Source: Pirellulales bacterium (lineage in GTDB: Bacteria > Planctomycetota > Planctomycetia > Pirellulales > Lacipirellulaceae). Taken from it: 51,741 nt of DNA. The stretch is from NCBI GenBank assembly GCA_022448265.1, contig JAKVCC010000023.1, positions 1-51,741 on the forward strand, written 5' to 3'. This document shows positions 19,001-49,977 of the stretch, one piece after another. Made by a program: the position numbers and the translations under genes. Numbering within the stretch: the stretch's first letter is position 1; each line of letters starts with the position of its first letter. The notes beneath the pieces are model-generated. The model saw only the letters and a list, made by a program, of their open reading frames with translations. It did not search any database and was not told the DNA's origin.

Positions 19001-19380
19001 CGATGCCGATGGGGGCGCACTGGACTGTCTCGCGAGAGTTTAAAAGAAACCTCAGTTCGCACATCCGCCGAACGGCTTAATTATTAACCACTATCCGGGC
19101 CGGCGGTCATACCTTGTTCGATACCTCGCCATCCAACGCTGCACAGAAGCAGGGGCCCCCGCTTCCTCCTTATTGCTTGCGGAAATAACTTTATCTATCA
19201 TTCTATTTCCTAAACATTCTTTTCAGAGATGTGAAATAGAATCGCCCTTCACCAAAAGGGTGGCCTGCGGCTGGGCTGTTATCTTTTTTGCGTCACCTTA
19301 GGGAGTTGCCTGAGTTAGATTGCGCCACTTCACCAGATTCCAATAAATGCGACCCTATTGGATCATGGGCGCCCGGAAAA
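19001..19380. other. Intergenic region before the acyltransferase gene
   Basis: About 380 bp with no gene I can support. It contains copy 2 of the dispersed repeat at 19142-19195 and AT-rich sequence around 19185-19240. The in-frame extension of the next gene back to 19288 has no family resemblance. Confidence 0.4.
19142..19195. repeat. Dispersed ~54-bp repeat, copy 2
   Basis: Begins CACAGAAGCAGGGGCCCCCG and continues in register with copy 1 (16857) and copy 3 (27484). Intergenic, downstream of the PEP-CTERM fusion gene. Confidence 0.35.
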
Positions 19381-34105: not shown

Positions 34106-34649
34106 TCCCATCAGCAACCCATCGCCGCGCCGCTGCAACGCGAAGCAGCTTACAAAACACAACCATAATCTACTCTCAGGAAACGCCGAACGTGGCAATA
34201 ACAGGTGAGCGATATCTATGCCTACGCCCCCCCCATTGCCCCTGCCCTATTACTAGGGCATAAACCGCATCGAATCTCGTGTCATCCAAGGGTTGCCGCA
34301 AAACGCATAGCACAATGAGGAACCCTATCTAGGAGATGCGGGTTGAAAACAGCGTTGATACCTAAAGGCGTTTCTGCGCGGCGCCCCGCAGCAATAGGAG
34401 GCGTCGTCGATGGCGCGGTGTGGCACGACCCCCCCTCGCCACCACAGCAAGAACCCAGCGACGGTTCGGGCTAAGACTCTTCTAGCCGGAACGCCTCAGT
34501 TCACCATGCAGTAGCATGAATTGCATTTTTATGCCAGACTCTGCTACGACACGATTCATCCTGGCAGACTGCGTTACCTTCTACTGAACCCGCTGGCCAA
34601 ACGCCGCGGGCGTAAAGACCGGCACTCACACTTAAATGGCGAGCAATTG
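34106..34649. other. Intergenic region with one hairpin
   Basis: TGCCCTA (34243-34249) pairs with TAGGGCA (34254-34260) over a 4-nt loop, 140 bp after the TPR gene stop; no T-run. The in-frame extension of the next gene to 34521 shows no homology. Nothing else recognised. Confidence 0.4.
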
Positions 34650-36512
34650 ATGGAACCCAAAATCACTTTTTTGCAACTAAAAGAATATATGCGTGATGTC
34701 ATCAGTGACAAACACAAGGCTACAAAATGCAACTACCTGATTGAGCCTCAAAAGAATTCATTCTACGAATGGGAAGACTTTAATACTTCCAATCCGACAT
34801 TGATGCGAGTTCAAGGCAAGACCCTTCTTGGCTACAGGGCCGGCGGCACCGACACCTGTTATGTCATTTCTCCAAATGGAGACATTAGCTGGGGAAGCGA
34901 ATTGGGAATCGCCATCCTAGACGACAAGGGGGAAAATGTAACGCAAAGGTTCCCTCTTCCAATATTCCGATCACAAAGACGCATTGACTTCCCAAAAACC
35001 ATATCGCAATACAAAGAAGTTGTAGACGCTACTCCGGACGAAGACATTGCATATCACGATTTCAGGTTGATCAATTTAGATGCTTATGTGTACATCTACT
35101 ATCACAACGGAAAAATAGCCGACTTCCTTGATTTCATCGTCAAAATGCCAGAGGACATTTTCCTTTCGAAAATTAAAGACTGCGAAAAACTAATTGCGAA
35201 AAACCAGGTCACTACAGAAGAATGGTTTTCCATTTGGGCAGATTCTGAGTGGGAAAATGCAGGCATTGACGGCAATCGCAATTTCTACGGCGGCCGCTTG
35301 CCGAAGAACAACATCTCCATATACAAACTCAAGAACGGTGACATACATTGCACTCACAGGCCGGCACCGGATAACGCCATTCTCAATATTGGAAAAAACA
35401 CCTCGGTCGATACAACTGAAGATGGCATTCCCAAGCTGGGGACTTTAGAAACATGCGTCCGCGCCGACTGCTTCGACAACTCCCACCTTGGAAGCAATGG
35501 CACCGAAACACTTGCAACAATTCTAGGCCAGGAGGTTCTGATTTGCGTAACCCATGGCGTGCACAATCTTGCATTTTCCAATTCTCCAAGACCGGCCCGC
35601 AACCTGTGCTATTTGCCTTTTTTCCGAGTTAAGGACTACGAAACTGGTGAAGTTCTGCATTGGTCTCGAGAGCCGATCATGCTCATTGATGACCAATGGT
35701 CTGAATACACCTTCTATGGGAATTGGGTGGCATCACTGGACGAGTTTTGTTACACGTCCTTCCCCGGTGGCCAGCTTCCAGAAATTGAGGGCAAGAACGC
35801 TGAGGATGACTTGTTTTATTGCCCCATTGGCATAGGAGACACTGCCACAGGGAGGTTGTCATTCAAACCAAAAGACCTTTTGAGCCAAAGCGTGATGGAG
35901 AACATCAGGGACTACAAGTATTTCAATCAAAAAAAGAAAGAACTAGATGTCCCGGCAAATACCTACCACTTCAAAGAACCGATCAGTGGATGGACTTTCT
36001 CAATAGAAAATATCGCAAATCAAATGTCCATCATCGGCCATGTCCAAACTGAACTGATCGACGAAACACATCAACGCCCAGTCCACAAGGACGCTCAAAG
36101 CTTTGACTTTTCAATGAGCCTCTTTGATGGCCGAAGCATCTTCTACAGCGACGAGCTTGGATATGTCGCACTTATTCAAGGAGTCACTTTTGCCAAGGAG
36201 AATGGAAAAGATGTCTCCAGAATAGGCTACGGAGTCATCCTCATGCACAAAGAAGACCCTAATCGCATACTGTTTCGAAGCTTCAAAAGCGTTACGCCAA
36301 TTGAAACTTTGGATGGAATTACTTACGACAAACACTTCAAACAATTCACCCATGAGGAAATACTGTCGTTCATTCCGGCAAACGTTAAAACCATAAAAGA
36401 AACAATGACGAAGTTTGAGCCCTCTGGTTACACATACCCTTCGACCCACACGAGGTGGCTAAGAGACAAAGCTGCGGGCAAATCGTCTTTCGATGTGATT
36501 GAGTTTCCCTAA
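34650..36512 (+). CDS. Five-bladed propeller glycosidase-like protein (GH43/GH130-like, distant)
   Basis: About 620 residues from ATG 34650. No signal peptide. A GH130-like hallmark is seen near residues 270-340: DNSHLGSNGTETLA, VTHGVHNLAF, then RNLCYLPFFRVKDYETGEVL and HWSREPIM, which parallels 'GSN..P..T..GWL..yHGv...YrlGa.LLDl.dP..v..Rs..PIl' of beta-mannoside phosphorylases. A second similar pattern occurs near residues 505-560: VALIQGVTFAKEN, GYGVILMHKEDPNRILFRSF and KSVTPIE. The N-terminal 120 residues and the region between have no signature I know. Assignment is by pattern only. If correct it would cleave or phosphorolyse beta-linked oligosaccharides in the cytoplasm. AT-rich relative to most of the window, no operon partner. 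Confidence 0.5.
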   Translation: MEPKITFLQLKEYMRDVISDKHKATKCNYLIEPQKNSFYEWEDFNTSNPTLMRVQGKTLLGYRAGGTDTCYVISPNGDISWGSELGIAILDDKGENVTQRFPLPIFRSQRRIDFPKTISQYKEVVDATPDEDIAYHDFRLINLDAYVYIYYHNGKIADFLDFIVKMPEDIFLSKIKDCEKLIAKNQVTTEEWFSIWADSEWENAGIDGNRNFYGGRLPKNNISIYKLKNGDIHCTHRPAPDNAILNIGKNTSVDTTEDGIPKLGTLETCVRADCFDNSHLGSNGTETLATILGQEVLICVTHGVHNLAFSNSPRPARNLCYLPFFRVKDYETGEVLHWSREPIMLIDDQWSEYTFYGNWVASLDEFCYTSFPGGQLPEIEGKNAEDDLFYCPIGIGDTATGRLSFKPKDLLSQSVMENIRDYKYFNQKKKELDVPANTYHFKEPISGWTFSIENIANQMSIIGHVQTELIDETHQRPVHKDAQSFDFSMSLFDGRSIFYSDELGYVALIQGVTFAKENGKDVSRIGYGVILMHKEDPNRILFRSFKSVTPIETLDGITYDKHFKQFTHEEILSFIPANVKTIKETMTKFEPSGYTYPSTHTRWLRDKAAGKSSFDVIEFP

Positions 36513-37729: not shown

Positions 37730-39370
37730 ATGAGCCAGGAATCAACGCCAGCTCCCAGAGGAACACTCGAAGGACTTCGCAAGTTTTGGAAGCACGATAT
37801 TCTTTCGGGCTTTCTTGTGTTCCTGATCGCGCTGCCCCTTTGCCTTGGGATCTCGCTAGCGTCCGGATACCCGGCCATTGCGGGAATCTTCACCGCAATT
37901 ATCGGAGGATTGTTGGCGACGTTTTTCAGCAATTCAGAGCTTACCATCAAAGGACCTGCAGCAGGCCTTATTGTAATAGCACTTGGCTGTGTTACTGAAT
38001 TTGGTTTTACCGGGGGGGCGGATCCGGCTGCCGACATGCAAGCCTATCGACTCGCCCTTGGGGTCGGTGTTGCCGCAGGCATCCTTCAAATTCTCATCGG
38101 CATGTTTCGAGCTGGGATCCTCGGCGAGTTTTTTCCCACCGCAGCGATTCACGGATTACTCGCCTCGATCGGTGTGATCATCATAGCTAAGCAATTCCCG
38201 CTAACCTTGGGATTGGACTCGAAAGGCGAACCTTTAGAGCTACTTGCAAAGATCCCACAGTTCATCATGGAGATGAACCCAATTGTGGCACTCATTGGGA
38301 TCATCAGCCTGATCATTATGTTCGGTTACCCACTTATTAAGAGCCCACGCCTAAGGGCGATTCCCGCTCCTGTAGTAGTCCTTGCTATTACCGTTCCCTT
38401 GGGGATGTACTTCGATCTGGGGGAGGAACGCACCTATTCGTTCGGCGGCCACGATTACCCTCTTGGAGCAAATTTTCTCGTCAATGTCCCCAAAAACATG
38501 TTCAGCGCCATAACCTTTCCAGACTTCTCTGGCTTGGGCACTACGATAGCGCTGAAGTACATCATGATGTTCGCATTGATTGGAAGTTTGGAATCCCTTC
38601 TGAGCGCTAAAGCAATTGACGAAATCGATCCTTGGCGCAGAAAAACCAACCAGAACCGTGATCTGGCTGCCGTCGGACTAGGCAATACCCTCTGCGCTTT
38701 TGTTGGCGGGTTGCCGATGATCTCTGAAATCGTACGGAGCAAAGCCAATATCGACAACGGCGCCAAAACTCGATTTGCCAACATGTCTCATGGAATCTGC
38801 TTACTCGTCTTTGTCGCGCTCTTACCGGGCTTGATCAATCAGATCCCACTCGCTGCATTGGGCGCGATGTTGGTTCGCGTCGGCTTCCGCTTGGCGTCAC
38901 CACAAGAATTTCTCCACATGTACAAAGTTGGGCGCGAACAACTGGTCATTTTTGTTTCAACTATTGTAGGTGTGCTGGCGACAGATTTACTCATCGGCAT
39001 TGCCATCGGCATTGCCGTCAAGGCAGCCTTCCACATCTTTAATGGCGTGCCCTTGCTGTCTCTCTTTCGACTGCGAGTCAGCATCGAGCAGAGAGAGAAA
39101 GATGGGGTAACGGTTGCCGTAAGGGACTCTGCAGTGTTTAGCACGTGGATTAGCCTAAAGAGGAAATTAGAACCATTAAAAAGTGAGCCTAGGGTTGTTC
39201 TTGATTTTTCGGAGACCTGCTTTGTTGACCATACTGTCATGGAACGGCTCAAAGAAATGGAAAATGAATTCAAGGATAATGATTCAACATTGGTCATTAC
39301 TGGATTAGACCAGCATCAAAAGCTCTCGAACTATGCGACCGCCGGCCGAAAAAGGAGCCGCATTAGGTAG
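37730..39370 (+). CDS. SulP family anion transporter (bicarbonate or sulfate)
   Basis: 546 residues. SulP/SLC26 inner-membrane transporter: FWKHDILSGFLVFLIALPLC opening, the TM3-like region SNSELTIKGPAAGLIVIA, about 12 hydrophobic helices, GNTLCAFVGGLPMISEIVRS, and a C-terminal cytoplasmic STAS domain (RVVLDFSETCFVDHTVMERL, STLVITGLDQHQKL). SulP members carry sulfate, bicarbonate (BicA type), or chloride. Its position 104 bp upstream of dabA makes bicarbonate the best guess, with Na+ or H+ coupling unknown. First gene of the 11-gene same-strand cluster. Confidence 0.88.
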   Translation: MSQESTPAPRGTLEGLRKFWKHDILSGFLVFLIALPLCLGISLASGYPAIAGIFTAIIGGLLATFFSNSELTIKGPAAGLIVIALGCVTEFGFTGGADPAADMQAYRLALGVGVAAGILQILIGMFRAGILGEFFPTAAIHGLLASIGVIIIAKQFPLTLGLDSKGEPLELLAKIPQFIMEMNPIVALIGIISLIIMFGYPLIKSPRLRAIPAPVVVLAITVPLGMYFDLGEERTYSFGGHDYPLGANFLVNVPKNMFSAITFPDFSGLGTTIALKYIMMFALIGSLESLLSAKAIDEIDPWRRKTNQNRDLAAVGLGNTLCAFVGGLPMISEIVRSKANIDNGAKTRFANMSHGICLLVFVALLPGLINQIPLAALGAMLVRVGFRLASPQEFLHMYKVGREQLVIFVSTIVGVLATDLLIGIAIGIAVKAAFHIFNGVPLLSLFRLRVSIEQREKDGVTVAVRDSAVFSTWISLKRKLEPLKSEPRVVLDFSETCFVDHTVMERLKEMENEFKDNDSTLVITGLDQHQKLSNYATAGRKRSRIR

Positions 39371-39474
39371 GCATGGGGTTTGGCCATTTCCACCTTTACT
39401 GAGCTTTAAAATTAAGCAGCATCAACAGGCTGAATGTGCGGAGGGTCGTGAGATAAGCGACTGAGTCGGAACAA

Positions 39475-42348
39475 ATGTCGATGAAACCAAATTTTCAGGA
39501 TTTCCAAACGCTTTCCCCCGAAGAAGGAGAGCGAGTGCGGGACAGGGTCGCTGAGGCGTGTAAGCCAATTGCCCAGTCCTGGCCGATGAAGACATTCGCT
39601 TACCGCAATCCGTTGCGCGGCTTAGAGTCCTTGCCGTTTGACGAAGCGGTCAGCGAGGGCAAACAGCTGATTGGTGGAAACGGATACCTCTCGAATGAAG
39701 ACTATCGCCGCTTGTATCGCGAGGGACGCATTGCAGATCAGGCCATCGAACATGCCCTGCACACGGCTGGCATTGAGGCGGCAACCGAACCCGTAACCTT
39801 GGGTGATCGGAAAATTGAATTCTGGGAAGTGTTACGATTGCATCTACTGTTTGGCTTTGACGCACTCGACCCCGCCTTATTAACCTGGCAGCTTAGCGCC
39901 GGTTCGCTGCAACAAGATCTATGGCAAAGCAGCCTCTCTGCGCTGGGATTGGTCGATGCAGCACATGGCAGCAACGACCAACAGCGCCCTACCAATGCGC
40001 CCACAGATATCGATCTGCCAGCTGATCACACACTCAGCGACTGGCTTGATAAACTGGCCGGAGCGTCGTTGGTTGACCAGATTAATGATCAAATGATCAA
40101 ATGGAACGCCGCCTTTCTGGACGAGGGGATGGCCGGCTGGCAAATGCCCGGCAGACAGGCTGGCTTTTATGCCAGCTGGCGACAATTAGCTCAGCGGGAT
40201 TTCTCCGGACGCTTTCTGGGCATCAGACAGTTCGCTAACAAATGCCGCGCGTTACCCAATTCACCGGCAGACGCAATCGCCACCCATCTGACAACGCTGG
40301 AAATTCCCCAGGAACGTTGGCCTGACTATATGGCGCGACTGTTTGCCCAGTTGCCCGGTTGGGTAGGCTTTATTCGCTGGCGAAGCGAGAATCCCAATTA
40401 TGCGGCCCAAGCAGAACATCCGATGGACCCGGTCGAATACCTGGCCGTCCGACTGTTCTACGAAGTGGAGCTCGTCCAGGCATTCTGCCACCGGCAATGG
40501 TCTAGCAAAGGGACCCTGTCGGCACTGCGGTCTCACTGGGAGCAGAATCCAGTTAACGGGAGCCACCCAATAGATGCTATCACACACGGCATCTGTCGCG
40601 ACGGCTGGCGCTGCTACCAACTCGCCCAACGTCTGCAACTCACACCGCAAGACGTCCAGCAGCTGACCGCTGCCAACATCAAAGTTCTGCTGGGCTGGCT
40701 GGACGCACTACCAACAGGTCGGCACGGACCGATCTGGCTCAGCGCACTGGAATTCAGCTTTCGCGACCAACTCCTCGGCCAGCTGGCAGCCCAGCAAAAC
40801 GTGCCCCACAGCGCAGCCGACCGACCTCTGGCACAAATGGTGATGTGTATCGATACCCGGTCCGAATCGTTCCGCCGGCACATCGAAGCAGAGGGACCGT
40901 ACGAGACACTTGGGTATGCGGGGTTCTTTGGCATCGCGATGAGTCATCAAGCGTTCGACGGATCTGAACGGGCCGCCTTGTGCCCAGTGATCGTCGCACC
41001 CGGGTTTGAAGTCAGCGAAGTGCCGCGCGGCGATCAGGAGCAACCGCTTAAGCAGTATGCGTCGGGTTTCCGATGGCAACAACTGGGCCAGCACCTGTTT
41101 CATGACCTGAAGAGTAACCCGATCGGCTCGTTCATGTTGATTGACCTGCTCGGTCTGTTCTATACTGCGCGGTTGATCGGCAAGACGTTTCTGCAGACCC
41201 CTTATGAAACCATCAAGGCTACAGCTGCAAGGTGGTTTGTGCGGCCGGTCGCAACGCACATTCCCGTCGATCGAGTGGAAGAAGCAGACGCCCCGCCAGC
41301 CGATACGTTGGCTCACGGATTTACCCCGGACGAACAGGCCACCTTTGTGGAAAAAGGGTTGCGAGCCATCGGTCTGACCGAGAATTTTGGTCGGTTCATC
41401 GTGGCCTGTGGCCATGGCAGTACTTCCGAGAATAATCCGTATTTTGCTGCCTACAACTGCGGTGCCTGCGGCGGCGGTCATGGCGATCCTAATGCACGTG
41501 TGTTTGCCCGCATGGGAAATCAGCCGCACGTCCGTCGTATGCTCAAGAAAAATGGCCTGGAGATTCCCGACGACACCTGGTTCCTGGCGGCCAAACATAA
41601 CACTGCGACTGATCAGGTTTCGTTCTACGATGAGCAAGACATCCCGGCGAGCCACACTGCCGATCTGCAACGTCTGGTGGAAGACCTCAAAAAAGCCGGC
41701 CGCCACCAAGCGCTGGAACGCTGCCAGCGCACGCCAGCGGCACCGACTAACACTTCCCCGCAGGGCGCCGCAAGCCACATGGCCTCCAGAACAATTGACT
41801 GGGCCAATGTCCGACCGGAATGGGGCCTCTCCAGCAACGCAGCGTTCATCCTCGGACGCCGCGCGCTGACCAAGGGGCTCGATTTGGGAGGGCGGGTCTT
41901 TCTGCATTCGTACAATCCGGATACAGACACCGAGGGCGCCTTTCTGGAAGCACTGATGAACGCGCCGTTAGTCGTGGCACAATGGATCAGCATGGAATAT
42001 TACTTCTCTGCCGTGGATCCTGTCGTTTATGGCAGCGGCAGTAAAGTGACGCACAATGTGGTCTCCGGAGTCGGCGTAATGCACGGCAGCCATGGCGATC
42101 TGCAAGCGGGGCTGCCGCTGCAGAGCGTCAACAACGGCGCCAAACGCTATCACGAACCGGTCCGACTGCTAGCGATCATCGAGGCCCCCACCTCGCGCAT
42201 TGCAACAATAATTCAAAACCACACCACGTTGCAGAACCTGTTCCATAACCAGTGGGTCAATCTGGTGGCTTATGACCCAGGCAGAGGTGGATTTTTCCGT
42301 TATCGTCCCGACGCTACTTGGGAGGTCATCGATGTTCCCGCGGCTTGA
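39475..42348 (+). CDS. dabA: DabA, zinc-containing inorganic-carbon transporter subunit (UPF0753/DUF2309)
   Basis: 957 residues, full length for the family. DabA is a beta-carbonic-anhydrase-like peripheral membrane protein that, with a NuoL-like partner (DabB), hydrates CO2 vectorially to bicarbonate using an ion gradient. All four zinc-site residues are present: C458 and D460 in MCIDTRSESFRRH, H647 in CGHGSTSENNPYF, and C662 in AAYNCGACGGGHG; the 15-residue H-to-C spacing equals that of characterised DabA (H524/C539). The N-terminus has AYRNPLRGLESLPF, conserved in the family. Downstream is not a single dabB but an Mrp-like operon (48 bp to mrpE). The four ligands in place argue that it is active. 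Confidence 0.95.
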   Translation: MSMKPNFQDFQTLSPEEGERVRDRVAEACKPIAQSWPMKTFAYRNPLRGLESLPFDEAVSEGKQLIGGNGYLSNEDYRRLYREGRIADQAIEHALHTAGIEAATEPVTLGDRKIEFWEVLRLHLLFGFDALDPALLTWQLSAGSLQQDLWQSSLSALGLVDAAHGSNDQQRPTNAPTDIDLPADHTLSDWLDKLAGASLVDQINDQMIKWNAAFLDEGMAGWQMPGRQAGFYASWRQLAQRDFSGRFLGIRQFANKCRALPNSPADAIATHLTTLEIPQERWPDYMARLFAQLPGWVGFIRWRSENPNYAAQAEHPMDPVEYLAVRLFYEVELVQAFCHRQWSSKGTLSALRSHWEQNPVNGSHPIDAITHGICRDGWRCYQLAQRLQLTPQDVQQLTAANIKVLLGWLDALPTGRHGPIWLSALEFSFRDQLLGQLAAQQNVPHSAADRPLAQMVMCIDTRSESFRRHIEAEGPYETLGYAGFFGIAMSHQAFDGSERAALCPVIVAPGFEVSEVPRGDQEQPLKQYASGFRWQQLGQHLFHDLKSNPIGSFMLIDLLGLFYTARLIGKTFLQTPYETIKATAARWFVRPVATHIPVDRVEEADAPPADTLAHGFTPDEQATFVEKGLRAIGLTENFGRFIVACGHGSTSENNPYFAAYNCGACGGGHGDPNARVFARMGNQPHVRRMLKKNGLEIPDDTWFLAAKHNTATDQVSFYDEQDIPASHTADLQRLVEDLKKAGRHQALERCQRTPAAPTNTSPQGAASHMASRTIDWANVRPEWGLSSNAAFILGRRALTKGLDLGGRVFLHSYNPDTDTEGAFLEALMNAPLVVAQWISMEYYFSAVDPVVYGSGSKVTHNVVSGVGVMHGSHGDLQAGLPLQSVNNGAKRYHEPVRLLAIIEAPTSRIATIIQNHTTLQNLFHNQWVNLVAYDPGRGGFFRYRPDATWEVIDVPAA

Positions 42349-42396
42349 CTCCGAGGCGTTATCCGCAAACGACTATCACAGAATGACCTCAGATTT

Positions 42397-42900
42397 ATGA
42401 AACCAAACTATTACACCCTTCTGGCACTGAAGACCGGTCTGCTCACGCTCATCTGGTGCGCGCTCTCCAGTCCTGACATCTTCTCCGAGTCAGGTCTATG
42501 GGATGTCGTCATGGGGGCCGTTGCAGCCTTTACGGTGGCTTGGCTAAACACTGAACGCAAGGGCGTTTACGGCGCAATCCGTGTGGGACAACTGTTGGGC
42601 TATTGCCTCTGGCTGGCTGGCAGCATCTTCCGCAGCGGCTGTCATCTTTCTTTGCTGATTCTCAATCCAAGACTTCCCATTAACCCGAAGATGATCCGCC
42701 ACCGCTGCGAGCTGTCGAACGATTCCAGTGCCGTGCTGCTAGCAAACTCTATCACACTCACTCCCGGCACAATCACGGTCGAACTCGACTCACATGACCT
42801 GATCGTGCACACCATTGACGACAGCTCTGCTGCGGACGTGACCGACCGGCATATTGAACGGAAGATCGATGGCCTGTTTTCCACAAAAGGAATGTCATGA
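42397..42900 (+). CDS. mrpE: MrpE/MnhE-like cation antiporter subunit
   Basis: 167 residues. Two N-terminal hydrophobic helices (LLALKTGLLTLIWCALSS, WDVVMGAVAAFTVAWLN), a third around LGYCLWLAGSIFRSGCHLSL, and the typical C-terminal cytoplasmic part: LNPRLPINPKMIRH..., LLANSITLTPGTITVEL, and DLIVHTIDD. MrpE is a structural subunit of multi-subunit Na+/H+ antiporters, the counterpart of MbhA in archaeal membrane-bound hydrogenase. Overlaps mrpF by 4 bp (ATGA). Confidence 0.9.
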   Translation: MKPNYYTLLALKTGLLTLIWCALSSPDIFSESGLWDVVMGAVAAFTVAWLNTERKGVYGAIRVGQLLGYCLWLAGSIFRSGCHLSLLILNPRLPINPKMIRHRCELSNDSSAVLLANSITLTPGTITVELDSHDLIVHTIDDSSAADVTDRHIERKIDGLFSTKGMS

Positions 42901-43193
42901 TGGATTTCTTTCAAGCCACATTCATTCCAGGTGTCATGATGGGGCTCGCACTATTGAGTACCGCCTACCTGTACCGCGTCCTGTGCGGCCCAACGGTTTT
43001 TGACCGGATGCTGGGCCTCAACGGCATTTCGACGAAAGTGATCCTATTGCTCCTCGTGATCGGAACCGCGAACGATCGTGTGGACATGTTTGTCGATATC
43101 GCTTTGGGCTATGCCCTTCTGAATTTGGTAGGATCACTGGCAATCGCCAAGTACCTCGAACACCAGGGGGATGCGATTAATGCAATGGATTGA
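42897..43193 (+). CDS. mrpF: MrpF/MnhF-like cation antiporter subunit
   Basis: 98 residues, three hydrophobic helices. Signatures: YRVLCGPTVFDRMLGLNGIS (family 'RvirGPt..DRivalN' motif) and VDMFVDIALGYALLNLVGSL. Small membrane subunit of Mrp-type antiporters, MbhB equivalent. Overlaps both neighbours, which indicates tight translational coupling. Confidence 0.92.
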   Translation: MMDFFQATFIPGVMMGLALLSTAYLYRVLCGPTVFDRMLGLNGISTKVILLLLVIGTANDRVDMFVDIALGYALLNLVGSLAIAKYLEHQGDAINAMD

Positions 43194-43500
43194 CTCTGTA
43201 AAAGATCCGGCAGCGATGGCATTGATTCTGGTCGGGCTGTTCTTTTTGGTCGTGGCAGCGATCGGTGTGCTCCGCTTGCCAGATATTTATACGCGCTGCC
43301 ACGCAGTATCATTGGCCGATTCGCTGGGCGCTTTTTTTCTACTGGCAGGACTATCGCTGCACGCTAGCACCAACATGGTCCTGGTGAAGATTTTGGCGGT
43401 GCTGGTGCTACTCTACTTGCTCAACCCCGCGATTGCGCACCTGACTGTCCGCGCTGCGCATCGCTCGGGCCTCAAGCCCTGGAGCAGAGAAGACACATGA
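43180..43500 (+). CDS. mrpG: MrpG/MnhG-like cation antiporter subunit
   Basis: 106 residues from ATG 43180, chosen because AGGGGG (43165-43170) lies 9 nt upstream; ATG 43171 would leave only 0-1 nt. Family signature GVLRLPDIYTRCHAVSLADS and LGAFFLLAGLSL with three hydrophobic helices. Overlaps mrpF by 14 bp and the next gene by 4 bp. MbhC equivalent. Confidence 0.92.
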   Translation: MQWIDSVKDPAAMALILVGLFFLVVAAIGVLRLPDIYTRCHAVSLADSLGAFFLLAGLSLHASTNMVLVKILAVLVLLYLLNPAIAHLTVRAAHRSGLKPWSREDT

Positions 43501-44042
43501 TGGAATTTTTTGAAATTGCATTACTGATCCTGCTGATCACCACCGCCGTGGGTATCAGCCGCGTCAGAAACTTGATCAGCGCCGTCCTGGTTCTGGCCTG
43601 CTATAGCTTCCTGATGGCCGCTGTGTGGGCCCAGCTCGGCGCAGTCGATGTGGCGTTTGTCGAAGCAGTGGTGGGCGCGGGACTGGCCACGGTCTTGTTC
43701 CTACTGACACTGTTCCGCGCACGTGCGCAAGACACGCAGATTCGGCGGGCTCGCACGCCACTGGTTGCCTTGCTCGGCTTGCCCCTGCTGGGTTTCTTGC
43801 TGCTCTACGCCGCCGTGGATCTGCCACCCTATCCGGATGGACGGGATGGCCAGGATTTGGGCAAGGCGAGCACACGTGTGGCCGCCGAATACTTGCAAAA
43901 AAGCTATCAAAAGACCGAGACACCGAACGTCGTAACCGCAGTACTTATGGACTACCGTGCATTTGACACTCTGATTGAAACAGGTGTGATCTTTACTGCG
44001 GGTATCGCCTGCGCCTTGTTATTAAGGGACCGTGCAAAGTGA
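43497..44042 (+). CDS. MbhD/MbhE-like subunit (MrpA C-terminal part as a separate protein)
   Basis: 181 residues. N-terminal half is a DUF4040/MbhD-like membrane domain (NLISAVLVLACYSFLMAAVW, GAVDVAFVEAVVGAGLATVL); the C-terminal part carries the MbhE-like ETPNVVTAVLMDYRAFDTLI and ETGVIFTAGIACALLLR. In bacterial Mrp these segments are the C-terminal extension of the large MrpA; in Mbh they are separate MbhD and MbhE. Here they are fused to each other but detached from the NuoL-like subunit, which lies four genes downstream. Starts ATGATG within the mrpG stop and overlaps mrpB by GTGA. Confidence 0.85.
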   Translation: MMEFFEIALLILLITTAVGISRVRNLISAVLVLACYSFLMAAVWAQLGAVDVAFVEAVVGAGLATVLFLLTLFRARAQDTQIRRARTPLVALLGLPLLGFLLLYAAVDLPPYPDGRDGQDLGKASTRVAAEYLQKSYQKTETPNVVTAVLMDYRAFDTLIETGVIFTAGIACALLLRDRAK

Positions 44043-44488
44043 TCGAAGCCCACGACAGCCCCATTGTTCGCTCGGCCGGCAAGCTGCTGATTCCCTTGAT
44101 TCAGTTGTTTGCTTTGTATGTCCTGTTTTTTGGTCAGTACGGGCCGGGCGGGGGATTCGCTGGAGGCGTGATCCTGGGAACCAGTTTCCTATTGGCTATC
44201 CTGGTCCTGGGGCCCCAGGCGCCGCCCTGCCGTCTAGCGCACCAGCTCGAGCATGGAGACGGAGTAGGACTGATGATCTTTGTGGGCGTCGGCGGACTCT
44301 GTTTGATCGGTGGAGGCGAGTTCTTGAACTACTCGAACTTGCAACTCCCCAGTTTGGATGACGCAGCACGACGGTCTCTCGGTATCGTGCTGACGCAAAT
44401 TGGCGTGGCAGCTGATATCGCGGTGACAGCGCTGTCCATTGTGTTTAGCCTGGGCCGGCAGAACAGCCAGGAGGCATCGCATGAGTGA
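44039..44488 (+). CDS. mrpB: MrpB/MnhB-like cation antiporter subunit
   Basis: 149 residues, GTG start (44039) overlapping the previous stop as GTGA. MnhB signatures: SPIVRSAGKLLIPLIQLFAL, FGQYGPGGGFAGGVILGTSF, and a late helix IGVAADIAVTALSIVFSL. Four hydrophobic helices. MbhF equivalent. Overlaps mrpC by 8 bp. Confidence 0.9.
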   Translation: MIEAHDSPIVRSAGKLLIPLIQLFALYVLFFGQYGPGGGFAGGVILGTSFLLAILVLGPQAPPCRLAHQLEHGDGVGLMIFVGVGGLCLIGGGEFLNYSNLQLPSLDDAARRSLGIVLTQIGVAADIAVTALSIVFSLGRQNSQEASHE

Positions 44489-44885
44489 ACAGATCCAAGT
44501 GGCACTGAAAGAGGCACTGGAGCGTCCCAACCTGGTCGCCTTTGTAGTGCTTTTTTTGTGCGGTTTCTTTGTCATGACGACGAACTCGAACATGATCAAG
44601 AAGCTTATCGGCATTTATCTCCTGCAGACGAGCGTGTTGCTGCTGCTTGTCACCATCGGTGTCAAGCAAGATGCAAGCGTTCCAATCCTCATCGCAGACC
44701 ACACCGAATCCTCAGAAACGATCGTTCCCGCCGACTACTACGTCAATCCACTACCCCACGTTTTGACTTTGACCGCAATCGTGGTGCAGGTGGCAACGCT
44801 GGGAGTGTCGCTTGCCCTGGTTGCCGCTATTTACCGTAAATACAGCAGCCTGGATGAAAACGAGGTATTGCAGAGAATCGAATGA
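44481..44885 (+). CDS. mrpC: MrpC/NuoK-like subunit
   Basis: 134 residues from ATG 44481, with AGGAGG (44469-44474) 6 nt upstream. NuoK-like helices: NLVAFVVLFLCGFFVMTTN, KKLIGIYLLQTSVLLLLVTI, and HVLTLTAIVVQVATLGVSLA; PLPHVLTLTAIVV is the MrpC signature ('PlPqALvLTAIVI'). MbhG equivalent. ATGA overlap with mrpD. Confidence 0.92.
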   Translation: MSEQIQVALKEALERPNLVAFVVLFLCGFFVMTTNSNMIKKLIGIYLLQTSVLLLLVTIGVKQDASVPILIADHTESSETIVPADYYVNPLPHVLTLTAIVVQVATLGVSLALVAAIYRKYSSLDENEVLQRIE

Positions 44886-46369
44886 GAGATCACCTTCCCG
44901 TCATCTTGTTCCTGTTGCCCTTTGCCACCGCCATCTGCCTGCCGATGGTCGGGCTGAAAGCTCATAGATGGTGCCGTCCGTTGGCACTCGTGAGCCTGCT
45001 TGTGATGTTCGGGCTGGCAATCGTCAATCTGCTGCTCGTGCGAGAACATGGCGAGCAGAGTTATGGCTTGGCCGGCTGGCTGCCCGGCAGCGACCCGACA
45101 CTCGGCATCGAATGGGTCAACGATCACTTGGCGAGCGCCATGCTGGTCGCTATCAGTTTTCTGGCCTCGTTATGTTTGCTCTACAGTGGTTCGCTGACGC
45201 CCACCATCGGAAAACATCGCGTGGTGCCCTACTATACCCTCATCTTGTTGTTGATTTCCGCATTGACTGGAATTGTGTTTGCCGGTGACATATTCAACGT
45301 CTTTGTGTTCCTGGAAGTGGCCGCCCTTTCTGCGTACGCCCTGGTCGCGCTCGCTGGTGGCCGAGCGCTGATTGCCGCATTTCGGTATCTCATCCTGGGA
45401 ACCCTTGGTTCCACGTTCTACTTGCTGGGTGTGGTCTTCTTCTATGCCACCACCGGGACATTGAACATGGCGGAGATGTACCAGCAGTTCATTGCCTCGC
45501 CCGAGTTACTGCATTCAAGAGCTATCGTTGGCGGGATGACATTCCTGTTCCTCGGTTTGGGTATCAAGATGGCGCTGTTTCCCCTGCACGCCTGGCTTCC
45601 CGGCGCGTACACCCGCGCGCCGGACGCGATCTCTCCGCTGCTGGCAGGACTGATGACGAAAGTCGCCCTGTATGGGTGTGTTCGCATCCTGTTCTGGGGT
45701 CTGGCTGCCGGCAAGCTGCTGGAACCTGTGCCCGCACTGACACTGCTGGGCGGACTCGGCATGCTGGCCGCGCTGGCAGGATCCCTGTTGGCGTTGGCGC
45801 AACAGGAGCTGAAACGGATGTTCGCCTATGGTGGTATCTCCCACATTGGGCTGATTCTGATTGGCGTCAGTCAGACAAACCAAACCGCATTTGCCGGCAG
45901 CATGTTCTATCTGATGAACGACGCAATCATGCAGGCGGGTTTGTTCTTCATCGCAGGTGCAGCCATCCTGCACCATGGAGTACGAACGGTGACCGATCTG
46001 CCTCGCTTGCGACAGTCCCCCTGGCTGGTAGCAGCATTCATTGCCTTGGCCTTGAGCATGATTGGCATCCCACCCACCGGAGGATTCTTCGGAAAATGGC
46101 ACATTATCCTGGGTGCTCTTGAGGCAGAAAACTATCTCGCAATCACCGCAATCGTCGTCTCCACTTTGTTAACAATGGCTTATTTCCAACGCTTATTCCT
46201 CCGCATTTTCGGTCATAGCGAAGTGGTCCCGGACTCCGCTGAGGGATCGTTGGCCCTACCCGTCAAATTGGCCGTGGGACTAACTGCGATGCTCGTTGTT
46301 GTCCTCGGCCTCTGTAGTGGGCCCCTAATTGGATTCTTCCGGCTAACGGCCAGCGCCGCCGGTTTGTAA
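44882..46369 (+). CDS. mrpD: MrpD-like proton/cation-translocating subunit
   Basis: 495 residues, about 14 helices, NuoN/NuoM-like antiporter fold. Key sites: the TM5 glutamate in VFVFLEVAALSAYAL, the TM7 lysine in GIKMALFPLHAWLPGAY, and the TM8 lysine in GLMTKVALYG. In the TM12-like segment YLMNDAIMQAGLFFIAGA a glutamine stands where many MrpD/NuoL members have a lysine (K-A-x-L-F). MbhH equivalent and last of the Mrp-order genes. 29 bp before the NuoL-like gene. Confidence 0.9.
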   Translation: MRDHLPVILFLLPFATAICLPMVGLKAHRWCRPLALVSLLVMFGLAIVNLLLVREHGEQSYGLAGWLPGSDPTLGIEWVNDHLASAMLVAISFLASLCLLYSGSLTPTIGKHRVVPYYTLILLLISALTGIVFAGDIFNVFVFLEVAALSAYALVALAGGRALIAAFRYLILGTLGSTFYLLGVVFFYATTGTLNMAEMYQQFIASPELLHSRAIVGGMTFLFLGLGIKMALFPLHAWLPGAYTRAPDAISPLLAGLMTKVALYGCVRILFWGLAAGKLLEPVPALTLLGGLGMLAALAGSLLALAQQELKRMFAYGGISHIGLILIGVSQTNQTAFAGSMFYLMNDAIMQAGLFFIAGAAILHHGVRTVTDLPRLRQSPWLVAAFIALALSMIGIPPTGGFFGKWHIILGALEAENYLAITAIVVSTLLTMAYFQRLFLRIFGHSEVVPDSAEGSLALPVKLAVGLTAMLVVVLGLCSGPLIGFFRLTASAAGL

Positions 46370-46398
46370 GGAAAAGCGACTACGAGGTAACGAGACTC

Positions 46399-48450
46399 AT
46401 GTCGGATGTTTATATCCTGATCCCACTTTTACCGTTGCTCGCCAGCGTGCTTATCGCACTGTTCGGGTCGCGACTGGGCGAAAAATGCGCGCAGATCGGC
46501 GTGGCCGCTGTCGGGATTTCCTGTGCGCTGTCCGTCGCTGCCTTCGCGCACCTGCTGTACGAACCTGTTGCAATACATATCCCCCTCTACGAAATATTGC
46601 AGTCGGGCAATCTCAAAATCGACTTCGCATTACATCTCGACCAGCTCTCCGTTCTGGTTCTACTGTTGGTTACCGGCGTCGGCTTTGTGGTCCATGTATA
46701 CTCGGCCCGATACATGACGGGTGACGCACGGTTCACAAGGTTCTTCGCTGTGATGGCGTTGTTCACGTTCGGCATGGTCACGCTAGTCATGAGTCGTAAC
46801 CTGCTGATGCTGTTTATGTGCTGGGAAGTCATGGGAATCTGCTCCTACCTGCTAATATCCCATCAATCCAATCGTCAGGCGGCGTGTCAGGCAGCCACCA
46901 AGGCGTTCCTGGTGAATGCGGTTGCCGATGTCGGGCTGTTGTTCGGCATTGTGCTGACCTACACCACGTTCGGCACACTGGACATTCCAGACATTCTCCA
47001 AGGGGCGGAAAGCATCCGTGGCCAGACCATCAACCTGTTGTCCTGGTTCGGCCTCGAAGGGAAGGTCGAGACGGCCACGTTGATCACACTTTTTCTGTTC
47101 ATGGGTTGCCTGGGCAAGTCCGCCCAAGTTCCCTTCCACGTCTGGCTGCCCAATGCGATGGAGGCCCCGACTCCAGTCTCAGCGTTGATTCACGCCGCCA
47201 CTATGGTGAACGCCGGCCCCTATTTGCTGGTACGGTTTAGCGCCCTGGCGATGCTCTCACCGGTCGCCATGGCAGTGATCGCGATCGTGGGCGGCGCCAC
47301 CGCGCTGTTTGCCGGAATCGTCTCGCTGACCCAAAGTGACATCAAGAAAATACTGGCCTACTCCACGATCAGCCAGATCGGCTTCATGATTATGACCTGC
47401 GGCTTGGGTGCCTTTGTGGCGGCCATCTTTCACATGCTGGCGCACGGATTTTTGAAAGGCTTTCTGTTTCTTTCGACAGGCAATCAGCTGGCCAACGTCG
47501 GGACCCATACACACCACGGATCGACAGACACGCCCCGGCCATCGGCGGTCCTCTGCCTGGGCGCACTGTTGCTGGCCTGTGTCCCAGCGCTGGTGTTCTT
47601 CTGGGGGCAAGCGGAGTCTTTGTGGGCAACACATACACTCCAGGCACATATCGCTTTCTGGGTGATAGGCCTGCTCACTGTCTTTTTCACCGCAATGTAT
47701 CTGTTCCGTGGGATTGTTACCCTGTTTCACCCCTCGGAAGGCTTGCACCCACAGCTCTTTTCTGCACGTCATGTCAGCGGCATTGTCACTGGGGCGGTGG
47801 CGCTAAGCTTGCTACTACTGGCTGTGTGGACCGGATTTGTCCCGTTCCTCGTCGGCGTGGTTCAGCAGCCTTACGACACAGCGACAGACGGTGCCCTAGA
47901 GGTTCCGCGCATTTGGGCAATCGCGCTGGCCCTGTTGGCAGCTGCTGCTGGCTGGATCCTGGCCTACGCTCGCCATTGCCAAACCCGTTTGCGGGTGCCA
48001 GCGCAGTCTACCTGGTCCCAGACGATCTACCTGCTTTTTCTCAACAAGTTTTATTTCGACGAACTCTATACGGCATGCATCGTACAGCCGGCAATTCAAT
48101 TCAGCCGCTGGCTTTGGCGCAAAGTGGACATGGGTATCATCGATCGGCTAGTGATGGCCAGCGGCAGCAGATGTATTGCCCTAGCCCACACCTTGTGGCA
48201 GATCATGGATGTCCGTGCAATCCAGCGCACCGTCGGGCCGACTGCCGCCAGCAGTCTCCCTTTTGCCTGGTGGACCTCGGAGGCCACCGAGCGCGCTCCG
48301 GACGAACCACGCACCGACAAGAATGAAAGCGTGGGAACCAGTTCCGCTGAATTTCGAGACGTCGAACCACGTACGCTGCAGCACCATCTACTGTTACTAA
48401 TTGTCTGGCTGGTAGCAGCCATCGTGTTCTACTATTGGCTCGTGTCATAA
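46399..48450 (+). CDS. NuoL/MrpA-N-like (DabB-like) proton-translocating subunit
   Basis: 683 residues with GAGG upstream. NuoL family: LHLDQLSVLVLLLVTGVGF, MFMCWEVMGICSYLLISHQS (TM5 Glu), GKSAQVPFHVWLPNAMEAPT (TM7 Lys), PVSALIHAATMVNAGPYLLV, AHGFLKGFLFLSTG (lysine retained). The C-terminus has an extra helical extension typical of NuoL (YLLFLNKFYFDELYTACIVQ) and a final helix. It could serve as NuoL, MrpA-N, or as the DabB partner that DabA requires. It lacks the MbhD/E-like tail of true MrpA, which is encoded upstream. Confidence 0.92.
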   Translation: MSDVYILIPLLPLLASVLIALFGSRLGEKCAQIGVAAVGISCALSVAAFAHLLYEPVAIHIPLYEILQSGNLKIDFALHLDQLSVLVLLLVTGVGFVVHVYSARYMTGDARFTRFFAVMALFTFGMVTLVMSRNLLMLFMCWEVMGICSYLLISHQSNRQAACQAATKAFLVNAVADVGLLFGIVLTYTTFGTLDIPDILQGAESIRGQTINLLSWFGLEGKVETATLITLFLFMGCLGKSAQVPFHVWLPNAMEAPTPVSALIHAATMVNAGPYLLVRFSALAMLSPVAMAVIAIVGGATALFAGIVSLTQSDIKKILAYSTISQIGFMIMTCGLGAFVAAIFHMLAHGFLKGFLFLSTGNQLANVGTHTHHGSTDTPRPSAVLCLGALLLACVPALVFFWGQAESLWATHTLQAHIAFWVIGLLTVFFTAMYLFRGIVTLFHPSEGLHPQLFSARHVSGIVTGAVALSLLLLAVWTGFVPFLVGVVQQPYDTATDGALEVPRIWAIALALLAAAAGWILAYARHCQTRLRVPAQSTWSQTIYLLFLNKFYFDELYTACIVQPAIQFSRWLWRKVDMGIIDRLVMASGSRCIALAHTLWQIMDVRAIQRTVGPTAASSLPFAWWTSEATERAPDEPRTDKNESVGTSSAEFRDVEPRTLQHHLLLLIVWLVAAIVFYYWLVS

Positions 48451-48477
48451 CCAAGCCCGCCGAGAAAGTTTGATTTC

Positions 48478-49977
48478 ATGGAATCCAGTCCCCTGATCTC
48501 CTACATGATCGCTGTGCCCTTCCTGGGAATCGCACTGCTGGCACTTATTCGCAACACGTTGTGGTCGCGGTGCATTGCCCTCGGTAGCGCGCTGGCGACC
48601 CTGGTAATCTTTCTTTTTGTGTTCTTCAATTTTGACTCGACCAAAGCAGGGATGCAATTTATCCATGTGGTACCCTGGATTCCAGCGTTCAACATCAGGT
48701 ATGCGGTCGGCGTCGACGGAATCAGTATCCTACTGGTGCTGCTGACCACACTGCTGACCCCGCTCTGCGTGCTCTGTTCCTGGACGTCGATCACTGCGCA
48801 CGTGCGCGCATTCATGATGCTGATCCTGCTGGTCGAAGGAGCCATGCTGGTGGTCTTTACGGCCATGGACTTGTTCCTGTTTTTCGTCATGTGGGAAGTC
48901 ACGATGATTCCCATGTACTTCATGATCATCCTCTGGGGCGGGCCTGGACGCATCGCCGCAGGATTGAAATTCATCCTCTACAGTCTGACCGGCAGCCTAC
49001 TGTTGCTGGTAGGGATACTGGCATTGCACGTGCAAGCCGGCTACAGCTTTGACATCGCACATTTGGGACAAATCGGGCCAAAACTTTCCGGCACGTCGCA
49101 GTTCTGGATGTTCCTGGCCTTCCTGCTCGCCTTTATCATCAAACTGCCAATGTTTCCGTTTCACACCTGGCTGCCCGATGCACACGGCGAAGCGCCCACC
49201 GCGGGCAGCGTGATTCTGGCCGGGGTCCTTTTGAAAATGGGTGGCTATGGGTTATTACGTATCTGTCTGCCCTTTTTCCCGGATGCCGCGGTGACATTCG
49301 CCCCCTGGATGCTCGGGCTCTCGGTTGTGGGGATTTTGTACGGGGGCTTGATGGCGCTGGCCCAGGACGACATCAAGAAACTGGTAGCCTATTCTTCAAT
49401 CTCGCATATGGGATTCGTCACGCTGGGCATTTTCGTATTCAACCGAGAAGGAACCCAAGGCGCCATTCTGCAGATGTTCAACCATGGCATCGTGACCGGT
49501 GCGATGTTCTTGGCCGTAGGACTGTTGTATGAACGAACACACAGTCGCATGATTGGCGATTACGGCGGGCTCTACCGCCAGATGCCGCGTTTTGTTGCTT
49601 TCTTTTCCGTCTTTGCGGTCGCCTCATTTGGCCTGCCGGGAACATGTAGTTTCATTGGTGAAATCCTGGTGCTGATCGGAGCCGCCAAGGACCACATTGG
49701 CATCGTCCTGCCAGCCATGGGCGGCATTGTATTGGCGGCATCGTATATTCTCTGGATGTTGCAGCGGGTGATACTCGGACAACCGCAGACGCCGGTCGCC
49801 TCACAACTGCCAGACATCACGGCCCGAGAACTGACAATGCTCGTGCCGTTGGCCTTGATCGTCTTTGCTGTGGGCGTCTATCCGCGACCGCTTATGGAAT
49901 TGATGGACGCTTCTGTCACCAAGCTCGTGAACCTGGGAAATCAAGGTGTGCTACTTGAGATGCCGAGTCTTTTCTAG
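48478..49977 (+). CDS. NuoM-like proton-translocating subunit
   Basis: 499 residues. NuoM features: VGVDGISILLVLLTTLLTPL, FFVMWEVTMIPMYFMIILWG (TM5 Glu), IIKLPMFPFHTWLPDAHGEA (TM7 Lys), GVLLKMGGYGLLRICLPFFP (TM8 Lys), FNHGIVTGAMFLAVGLLYER. Third antiporter-like subunit of the cluster, 27 bp after the NuoL-like gene. No other complex I subunit genes (nuoA-J, N) are in the window, so it is not part of an ordinary nuo operon. Confidence 0.92.
   Translation: MESSPLISYMIAVPFLGIALLALIRNTLWSRCIALGSALATLVIFLFVFFNFDSTKAGMQFIHVVPWIPAFNIRYAVGVDGISILLVLLTTLLTPLCVLCSWTSITAHVRAFMMLILLVEGAMLVVFTAMDLFLFFVMWEVTMIPMYFMIILWGGPGRIAAGLKFILYSLTGSLLLLVGILALHVQAGYSFDIAHLGQIGPKLSGTSQFWMFLAFLLAFIIKLPMFPFHTWLPDAHGEAPTAGSVILAGVLLKMGGYGLLRICLPFFPDAAVTFAPWMLGLSVVGILYGGLMALAQDDIKKLVAYSSISHMGFVTLGIFVFNREGTQGAILQMFNHGIVTGAMFLAVGLLYERTHSRMIGDYGGLYRQMPRFVAFFSVFAVASFGLPGTCSFIGEILVLIGAAKDHIGIVLPAMGGIVLAASYILWMLQRVILGQPQTPVASQLPDITARELTMLVPLALIVFAVGVYPRPLMELMDASVTKLVNLGNQGVLLEMPSLF

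Follow-up and report, generated by a model that had tools for sequence, protein, structure and literature searches.

Membrane systems that join a CO2-hydrating protein to subunits of the NuoL family form the background for the locus described here, a block of eleven forward-strand genes in which dabA is followed by a set of Mrp-type antiporter genes. The block lies on a contig of 51,741 nucleotides from a Pirellulales bacterium (JAKVCC010000023.1, assembly GCA_022448265.1), and this whole contig is called the window in what follows. In cyanobacterial NDH-1MS (CupA on NdhF3/NdhD3), an arm made of NuoM and NuoL carries the CO2-hydrating protein at its NuoL end. The energy for NDH-1MS comes from the oxidation of ferredoxin (PMC13144422). 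In DAB2 of Halothiobacillus neapolitanus (DabA2-DabB2), the zinc site is formed by C351, H524 and C539 together with D353 and R355, and a finger residue of DabA, E444, replaces K399/D400 of NuoL; its mutation abolishes activity (PMC13144422). DAB2 appears to be proton-driven, and MpsAB has been argued to use sodium (PMC13144422). SulP and NuoM beside ybcC have already been noted, and in clade C of the COGNAT analysis of YbcC, ybcC is located upstream of nuoL, with SulP and NuoM (PMC5700660). No description of DabA with Mrp genes was found in the open-access literature among the matches listed, nor in passages of PMC9080137, PMC10880623, PMC12628692 and PMC13399641, and one may exist elsewhere. 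DabA apparently joined to an Mrp antiporter arm is a newly found variant of the DAB family.

The block and its parts

In the original prediction, which a model had made from the window alone, eleven consecutive genes on one strand were proposed to wire a DabA pump to a membrane arm. All eleven open reading frames (ORFs) are indeed open on the same strand between 37730 and 49977, with their families assigned by Pfam or NCBIfam as follows.

37730-39370, + strand: SulP-family anion transporter, optional member of the block (Pfam Sulfate_transp, 195 bits)
39475-42348, + strand: DabA, beta-carbonic-anhydrase-like cytoplasmic subunit with a membrane finger (Pfam DabA, 883 bits)
42397-42900, + strand: MrpE, MbhA-like (Pfam MNHE, 96 bits)
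42897-43193, + strand: MrpF (Pfam MrpF_PhaF)
43171-43500, + strand: MrpG (Pfam PhaG_MnhG_YufB; TIGR01300 above cut-off)
43497-44042, + strand: MbhD+MbhE fusion (MbhDE), corresponding to the C-terminal part of MrpA (Pfam MbhD and MbhE; NF009159 DUF4040 above cut-off)
44039-44488, + strand: MrpB (Pfam MnhB)
44484-44885, + strand: MrpC, NuoK-like (Pfam Oxidored_q2; top NCBIfam matches are MrpC)
44882-46369, + strand: MrpD, antiporter-like subunit (Pfam Proton_antipo_M; best PDB match 7qru_D, an MrpD, 174 bits)
46399-48450, + strand: NuoL-like subunit (Pfam Proton_antipo_M and Proton_antipo_N; NCBIfam NDH_I_L, 495 bits, cut-off 407.5)
48478-49977, + strand: NuoM-like antiporter-like subunit (TIGR01972 NDH_I_M, 590 bits, cut-off 263.8; PDB 8qby_M, 421 bits)

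Pfam was run on the proteins from SulP to NuoL and NCBIfam on those from DabA to NuoM, ten of the eleven in each case, and NCBIfam gave no family for DabA. The predicted overlaps from mrpE to mrpD are also present, being of 4 bp in the ORF table of the window for mrpE/F, G/DE, DE/B and C/D. The overlap is about 5 bp for mrpB/C with the chosen mrpC start, the ATG at 44484 (the ORF tool gives a TTG at 44439), and 23 bp in the ORF table for mrpF/G, or 14 bp if a later in-frame ATG is the start. Gaps of 104, 48, 29 and 27 bp separate sulP from dabA, dabA from mrpE, mrpD from nuoL and nuoL from nuoM, respectively. The limits of the transcript are not settled by scans for promoters (5 found, 7.7 expected in shuffled sequence) or for terminators (19 found, 14.9 expected, near the shuffled sequence).

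Of the Mrp subunits A to G, E, F, G, B, C and D are each encoded by one gene, while A is represented by two proteins, MbhDE and the NuoL-like subunit. Among the genes after dabA, only antiporter-type membrane subunits were found with Pfam and NCBIfam, and no redox-centre or hydrogenase catalytic family. We consider it moderately probable that the block forms a single redox-free, gradient-driven vectorial carbonic anhydrase complex, with an Mrp-like arm whose tip would carry DabA on NuoL. The observations behind this reading are the content and order of the genes, their conservation across phyla and common descent, altered residues at the sites of docking and of the channels, and predicted folds.

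DabA and its NuoL-like partner

The DabA of the window matches DabA2 of the DAB2 structure (9rd0_A) with an E-value of 1.1e-114. Its zinc-site residues, C458, D460, R462, H647 and C662, align with those of that structure, including the spacing of 15 between histidine and cysteine, in agreement with the original prediction. The residues that matter for the zinc site and for docking are the following.

40846-40860, + strand: DabA C458, D460 and R462, zinc cysteine and Asp-Arg dyad (C351, D353 and R355 of DabA2); each invariant among the 67 aligned DabAs
41143-41145, + strand: DabA D557, finger residue corresponding to E444 of DabA2 (alignment of 67 DabAs)
41413-41460, + strand: DabA H647 to C662, the other zinc ligands (H524 and C539 of DabA2); present in 66 of 66 rows reaching this far
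47608-47616, + strand: NuoL-like subunit, residues 404-406 (Q-A-E), break of transmembrane helix 12 (TM12) at the K399-D400 site of complex I NuoL (alignment)

One row of the DabA clade to which the window belongs ends before the zinc histidine and cysteine. The finger, which is the most hydrophobic 19-residue window of DabA, carries an acidic residue as in DAB2, although with Asp in place of Glu, and its entry into the periplasmic half-channel of NuoL is putative. This Asp is found in 23/23 rows of the clade. Glu occupies the position in all 34 rows outside both this clade and a type with multiple antiporter genes, and nearly all of these 34 stand beside a single DabB (none is in view for L021 and L170). 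In the ten rows of the multi-antiporter type the position is varied, one of them having Asp.

An AlphaFold model of DabA (mean predicted local distance difference test score, pLDDT, 81; 21 sequences) resembles two-domain beta-carbonic anhydrases when compared with VIA-align, with Z values of 9.3 to 10.4 over 271-320 residues, the highest being that of carboxysomal 2fgy; smaller beta-carbonic anhydrases reach at most 6. A plain Foldseek search of the PDB (to 2026-04-08) gave nothing below an E-value of 0.001, with DAB2 absent from the best 50 rows; its weak first match, at 0.0033, is a beta-carbonic anhydrase.

Judged by sequence, the NuoL-like gene is the DabB of this system, because a tree of 71 NuoL-, NuoM- and MrpD-type proteins, from which eleven DabB rows had been thinned out beforehand, places the NuoL-like subunits of such blocks in a single clade beside DabB. 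The 16 NuoL-like subunits group together with a support of 100, join DabB (92) and then the multi-antiporter type (96), and stand with DabB apart from two complex I NuoLs. The five NuoM-like subunits included join the complex I NuoM of the host (100). The original prediction contrasted the nine-subunit set with the single NuoL-like DabB that known DAB systems need; by the tree, the NuoL-like subunit is not an addition to a DabB that is missing here. The partner gene is not adjacent to dabA but the eighth after it.

As in DabB, the TM12 charge is lost from the NuoL-like subunit, and from it only among the three antiporter-type subunits of the block. None of the 16 NuoLs has a lysine at the K399 column or up to about four residues away from it, whereas lysine occupies this column in the complex I NuoL of the host, in E. 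coli NuoL and in 4/4 MrpA. In DabB it is lost from the column in 31/31 rows, with some lysine nearby in two. E144 is kept in 16/16 of these NuoLs but lost in all 31 DabBs, and R175, the partner of E144 in complex I, is Ala or Ser in 16/16. Modelled from 18 sequences (pLDDT 73), the NuoL-like subunit resembles complex I NuoL from end to end (about 650 columns), and a C-terminal helix of 55 residues, at 550-604, is predicted with moderate confidence. In complex I, such a C-terminal helix of NuoL runs along NuoM and NuoN. Beyond the Ec520 column, these NuoLs have a median of 150 residues, against 37 in single DabBs; DabB tails range up to 363 residues, and the 857-residue DabB of the host itself is one of the long ones.

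In the NuoM-like subunit, seven channel positions (E, K or H residues) are kept in 16/16 blocks. MrpD keeps the TM12 lysine in 16/16, and the histidine of its TM11 is replaced by Asp in 16/16 (D347 in the window, codon 45920-45922); at this site, nine other MrpD- or NuoN-type rows have His in eight cases and Tyr in NuoN, and none has Asp. Among the rows listed, the alignments of the small Mrp subunits show residues particular to this group, from which no Na+ site can be assigned.

Spread, gene order and descent

Searching GTDB contigs with the DabA of the window yielded 26 loci, and further ones came from genomes searched around some of these; being seeded with this protein, the searches lean towards its relatives. 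A DabA is counted as being of this kind if it has at least 46% identity over most of the available length. Such a DabA is present in 1/293 genomes of one gammaproteobacterial order and 5/147 of another, in 1/64 genomes of the phylum of a Latescibacterota carrier, in 3/235 of that of a Myxococcota carrier, and in 9/198 of that of a Nitrospirales carrier, the genome at the centre of each search being included. Together with the host genome and four more from the GTDB-contig loci, this gives 24 genomes. Among 392 genomes of the host phylum, with at most two candidates scored per genome, no other DabA is more than 43% identical to the window protein over most of its length; the second DabA copy of the host itself is the one with 43%, and three DabAs reach 50-53%, but only in the C-terminal third.

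Profile hidden Markov models of the gene families of the window plus DabB were used to read the neighbourhoods, so that the statements on gene order refer to these families. For 18 loci, 7.7 kb or more of DNA downstream of dabA is available, and 15 of these have the full series DabA-E-F-G-DE-B-C-D-NuoL-NuoM without interruption (the window, L005, L007, L008, L009, L012, L154, L156, L157, L160, L161, L162, L164, L165 and L167). The block is thus conserved in the same order across bacteria of several distant phyla, its carriers including Planctomycetota, Myxococcota, Gammaproteobacteria and Nitrospirota. In 19 of the 24 genomes, the genes that follow dabA on its strand are Mrp genes, with gaps of up to 478 bases. 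In two more they follow an inserted dabB-dabA pair, in one there are none, and in two the contig ends at dabA. Contig ends cut six loci in all: L004, L006, L010 and L011, which show Mrp genes as far as they reach, and L163 and L166, which end at dabA. The two loci with the inserted pair, L158 and L159, come from the phylum of the Nitrospirales carrier; there, a dabB-dabA pair on the opposite strand stands between the Mrp-type dabA and mrpE (L158:8070-14171; L159:8021-14169), beyond which the series continues to mrpD in L159 and, via L205, to nuoM in L158. A possible 4-base overlap of dabA and mrpE was found in seven of 18 loci, five have gaps of 3 to 478 bases, and six, including the window, could not be placed. 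These values come from a script that took the in-frame start nearest to the dabA stop, which favours short gaps, and many starts were unplaced. In L161, a second Mrp operon on the opposite strand (L161:1-3650) lies upstream of the DabA-Mrp block.

The original prediction counted sulP as part of the block. This holds in part, as a same-strand SulP gene is upstream of dabA in 13 of the 21 loci with upstream DNA (610 and 1337 bases away in two of them; a weak 52-bit match in L005 is not counted). SulP is an optional member, and its link to the block is partly conserved.

In the host order the picture is different from that in distant phyla. DabA is present in 96 and MrpE in 14 of its 196 genomes, and both in ten, yet by coordinates they are side by side in the host genome only. 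On these counts from the host order, sulP-dabA and an Mrp operon could be accidental neighbours in a draft genome. We consider this extremely improbable, as the identical order in 15 loci of several phyla rules out chance adjacency and the distances between genes run in parallel. The conservation of order that the original prediction offered as a check is accordingly seen among distant phyla and fails among near relatives.

Common descent of the subunits is indicated by trees and distances. In a tree of 67 DabAs, from which fragments of 600 residues or fewer were left out (L011, L026 and others), the 23 rows of this kind are on one side of a branch with a support of 88 in the Shimodaira-Hasegawa-like approximate likelihood ratio test (SH-aLRT), and 22 of them on one with 95. 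Rows were assigned to the clade by similarity and neighbourhood, L155, L163 and L166 among them. Sister to the clade is a type that has several NuoM-like genes but lacks Mrp. For each of the nine partner genes, the distance matrix over the 15 complete blocks correlates with that of DabA, at r values from 0.50 (MrpF) to 0.952 (NuoL), with at most 2 of 2000 permutations as high. DabA is in this way linked to the nine-gene antiporter set, as had been proposed.

The main rival of a single complex is that two machines share one operon, an ordinary DabA-NuoL pump and a separate Mrp system that exports the protons or Na+ left behind in the cytoplasm by CO2 capture, the two being co-expressed without forming a joint complex. 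This we regard as unlikely, although less so than the other alternatives. It agrees with the fact that DAB2 works with two subunits (PMC13144422), with the existence of Mrp operons of the same layout without a nearby DabA, with the pair that splits dabA from mrpE in L158 and L159, and with the case of L155, described below. On the other hand, NuoL and then NuoM follow MrpD in all 16 loci that reach past mrpD (L158 being continued in L205), the NuoL of the block keeps the long C-terminal part that single DabBs mostly lack, and the DabA distances track those of NuoL, MrpB, MrpD and NuoM closely (r 0.91 to 0.95). Furthermore, a NuoL that served only DabA would leave the Mrp set without a NuoL-like A part.

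Mechanism and host context

If the block does form a single complex, DabA, a zinc protein similar to beta-carbonic anhydrases, would dock through its membrane finger on the NuoL-like subunit, and beyond NuoL the arm would extend through NuoM, MrpD and the small subunits of Mrp, in the manner of the distal arm of complex I. Ions would flow through NuoL down a proton gradient, and possibly a sodium gradient as well. NuoM and MrpD would be coupled to this flow within one arm, and it would drive the hydration of cytoplasmic CO2 to bicarbonate in one direction only. SulP would provide an optional, separate route for anions. By analogy with DAB2, for which vectorial CO2 hydration has been proposed, the zinc chemistry and the entry of protons through NuoL may be expected to be similar. 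The physical assembly of all subunits, the use of Na+, and a larger number of ions per CO2 than in DAB2 would be further properties of such a complex.

The reverse direction of coupling has to be considered as well, with the interconversion of CO2 and bicarbonate on DabA powering the export of ions through the arm. Before the function was known, COGNAT proposed that YbcC and NuoL use some exergonic reaction (PMC5700660), and several membrane subunits would export more ions. Nevertheless, purified DAB2 binds CO2 without hydrating it when there is no membrane potential, from which its authors conclude that the gradient drives the reaction (PMC13144422), and a CO2 hydration near equilibrium generally yields little energy. 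Reverse coupling is consequently improbable.

Several observations weigh against a single complex driven through NuoL. The register of TM12 is uncertain, since MAFFT places Q-A and phmmer A-E of the window protein opposite K399-D400, and a register based on the upstream proline puts Arg at K399 in 4/16 relatives, with Asp next to it in two; at this break, only the absence of lysine is firm. The loss of R175 is weakened as a sign special to DAB, as 4/4 MrpA also lack this residue. The 23 Asp fingers may derive from one ancestor, and would then count as one event, while the support for the clade of all 23 DabAs is below 95. L155 (genome G1259) has this DabA and no Mrp gene within about 12 kb, and near relatives of the host lack the dabA-mrp link (1/196 genomes of the order has MrpE beside DabA). 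With Asp in TM11, the channel of MrpD may be unlike that of other MrpD. The block also holds the only MNHE (MrpE) match found in the host genome, and its Mrp part may consequently serve general Na+ and pH balance. Confidence is slightly lower, too, because the overlaps of dabA and mrpE rest on starts chosen nearest to the stop.

The host is known from a draft genome of 3.64 Mb, about 97% complete, in which the window makes up contig 16. Membrane genes of the complex I type lie on contig 6, while subunits of the antiporter type (PF00361) were found on contigs 6, 16 and 27 only. Contig 27 carries the second DabA, behind its own 857-residue DabB. The distant single dabB that had been named as a possible refutation does exist in the sense that there is a separate dabB, but it comes with its own dabA. 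The long DabB of contig 27 has a second, partial PF00361 match in its C-terminal part (L003:1022-3595, with this match at 2786-3376), followed by dabA, and a relative of the same genus (L175) has a similarly long DabB. Other genes of the window belong to sulfatase, rhamnosidase and DUF1559 families, a content that suits a heterotroph. A planctomycete host agrees with the closest named relatives of its DabA and with families typical of the group, such as DUF1559. A 663-residue ORF upstream of the block (34521-36512) has no Pfam match at 1e-5, and the ORF at 19288-21525 combines ankyrin repeats with an acyltransferase domain.

No RuBisCO large chain was detected in the host genome, and matches occur in one of the 24 genomes with this DabA, many of which are drafts. 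Therefore, the block is not tied to the Calvin cycle, and it may supply bicarbonate to carboxylases that use it, or to another fixation path. The isolate names of some named carriers hint at sea water, where a sodium gradient would be in keeping. If a natural DAB is indeed connected to a complete Na+/H+ antiporter arm, the question of proton or sodium use becomes directly testable.

Comparison with known systems

The block resembles DAB2, DAC and MpsAB in having a DabA with a zinc site and a finger, and a NuoL-like partner without the TM12 lysine. It differs from them in that this partner is a full-length NuoL with E144, in the Asp instead of Glu of the finger, and in eight more antiporter-type genes. 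As in COGNAT clade C, dabA comes before nuoL with SulP and NuoM nearby, and a group similar to that clade is the sister in the DabA tree. In contrast to the block, these clade C-like loci (L013, L014, L018, L019 and others) lack Mrp E-F-G-DE-B-C, and the acid of their finger is mostly lost or changed. L013, L014, L018 and L019 have the layout NuoM-DabA-NuoL-NuoM-NuoM with four or more antiporter-type subunits (L028 from dabA on); a further MrpD-like gene is present in L013, L019 and L028, and the finger acid is lost in L014, L018 and L019.

In archaeal Mbh, the membrane-bound hydrogenase, the order mbhA-H is equal to E-F-G-D/E-B-C-D. The original prediction took the order of the window to be archaeal rather than bacterial, with NuoL and NuoM in place of hydrogenase genes, an interpretation that has to be abandoned. 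E-F-G-DE-B-C-D is an ordinary bacterial Mrp layout: the Mrp/Mnh operons of L196 and L202, also with a split A, have these seven genes arranged in this way along with two further antiporter-like ones, giving three antiporter-like subunits, and no DabA in the 18-20 kb fetched (the B and C frames overlap in L202). L203 has a similar layout with weaker matches, and the second Mrp operon of L161 has the same order as far as available. The Mbh-like order was accordingly rejected as a special sign. Unlike those of the block, the extra subunits of L196 and L202 (three of the four are in the tree) do not group with the block NuoL or NuoM. From Mbh itself the eleven genes differ by the absence of a hydrogenase catalytic or NuoH-like subunit, and from respiratory complex I by that of NuoH and the peripheral redox arm, so a remnant of either was rejected.

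NDH-1MS has its hydrating protein at a comparable end of the arm, but the block encodes no redox part, and its hydrating protein is DabA. In one assembly, the block would link complex I, Mrp and DAB, all with subunits of NuoL-type families, and its input would be an ion gradient and not electrons. More tentatively, it may represent a complex-I-like, redox-free CO2 pump, in which a chimeric Mrp-NuoM-NuoL arm tipped by DabA lets several proton and sodium channels jointly drive CO2 hydration. Vectorial carbonic anhydrases would then have a third architecture, in addition to those of NDH-1MS and of the two-subunit DAB, and it would occur in carriers of which nearly all lack a detectable RuBisCO.

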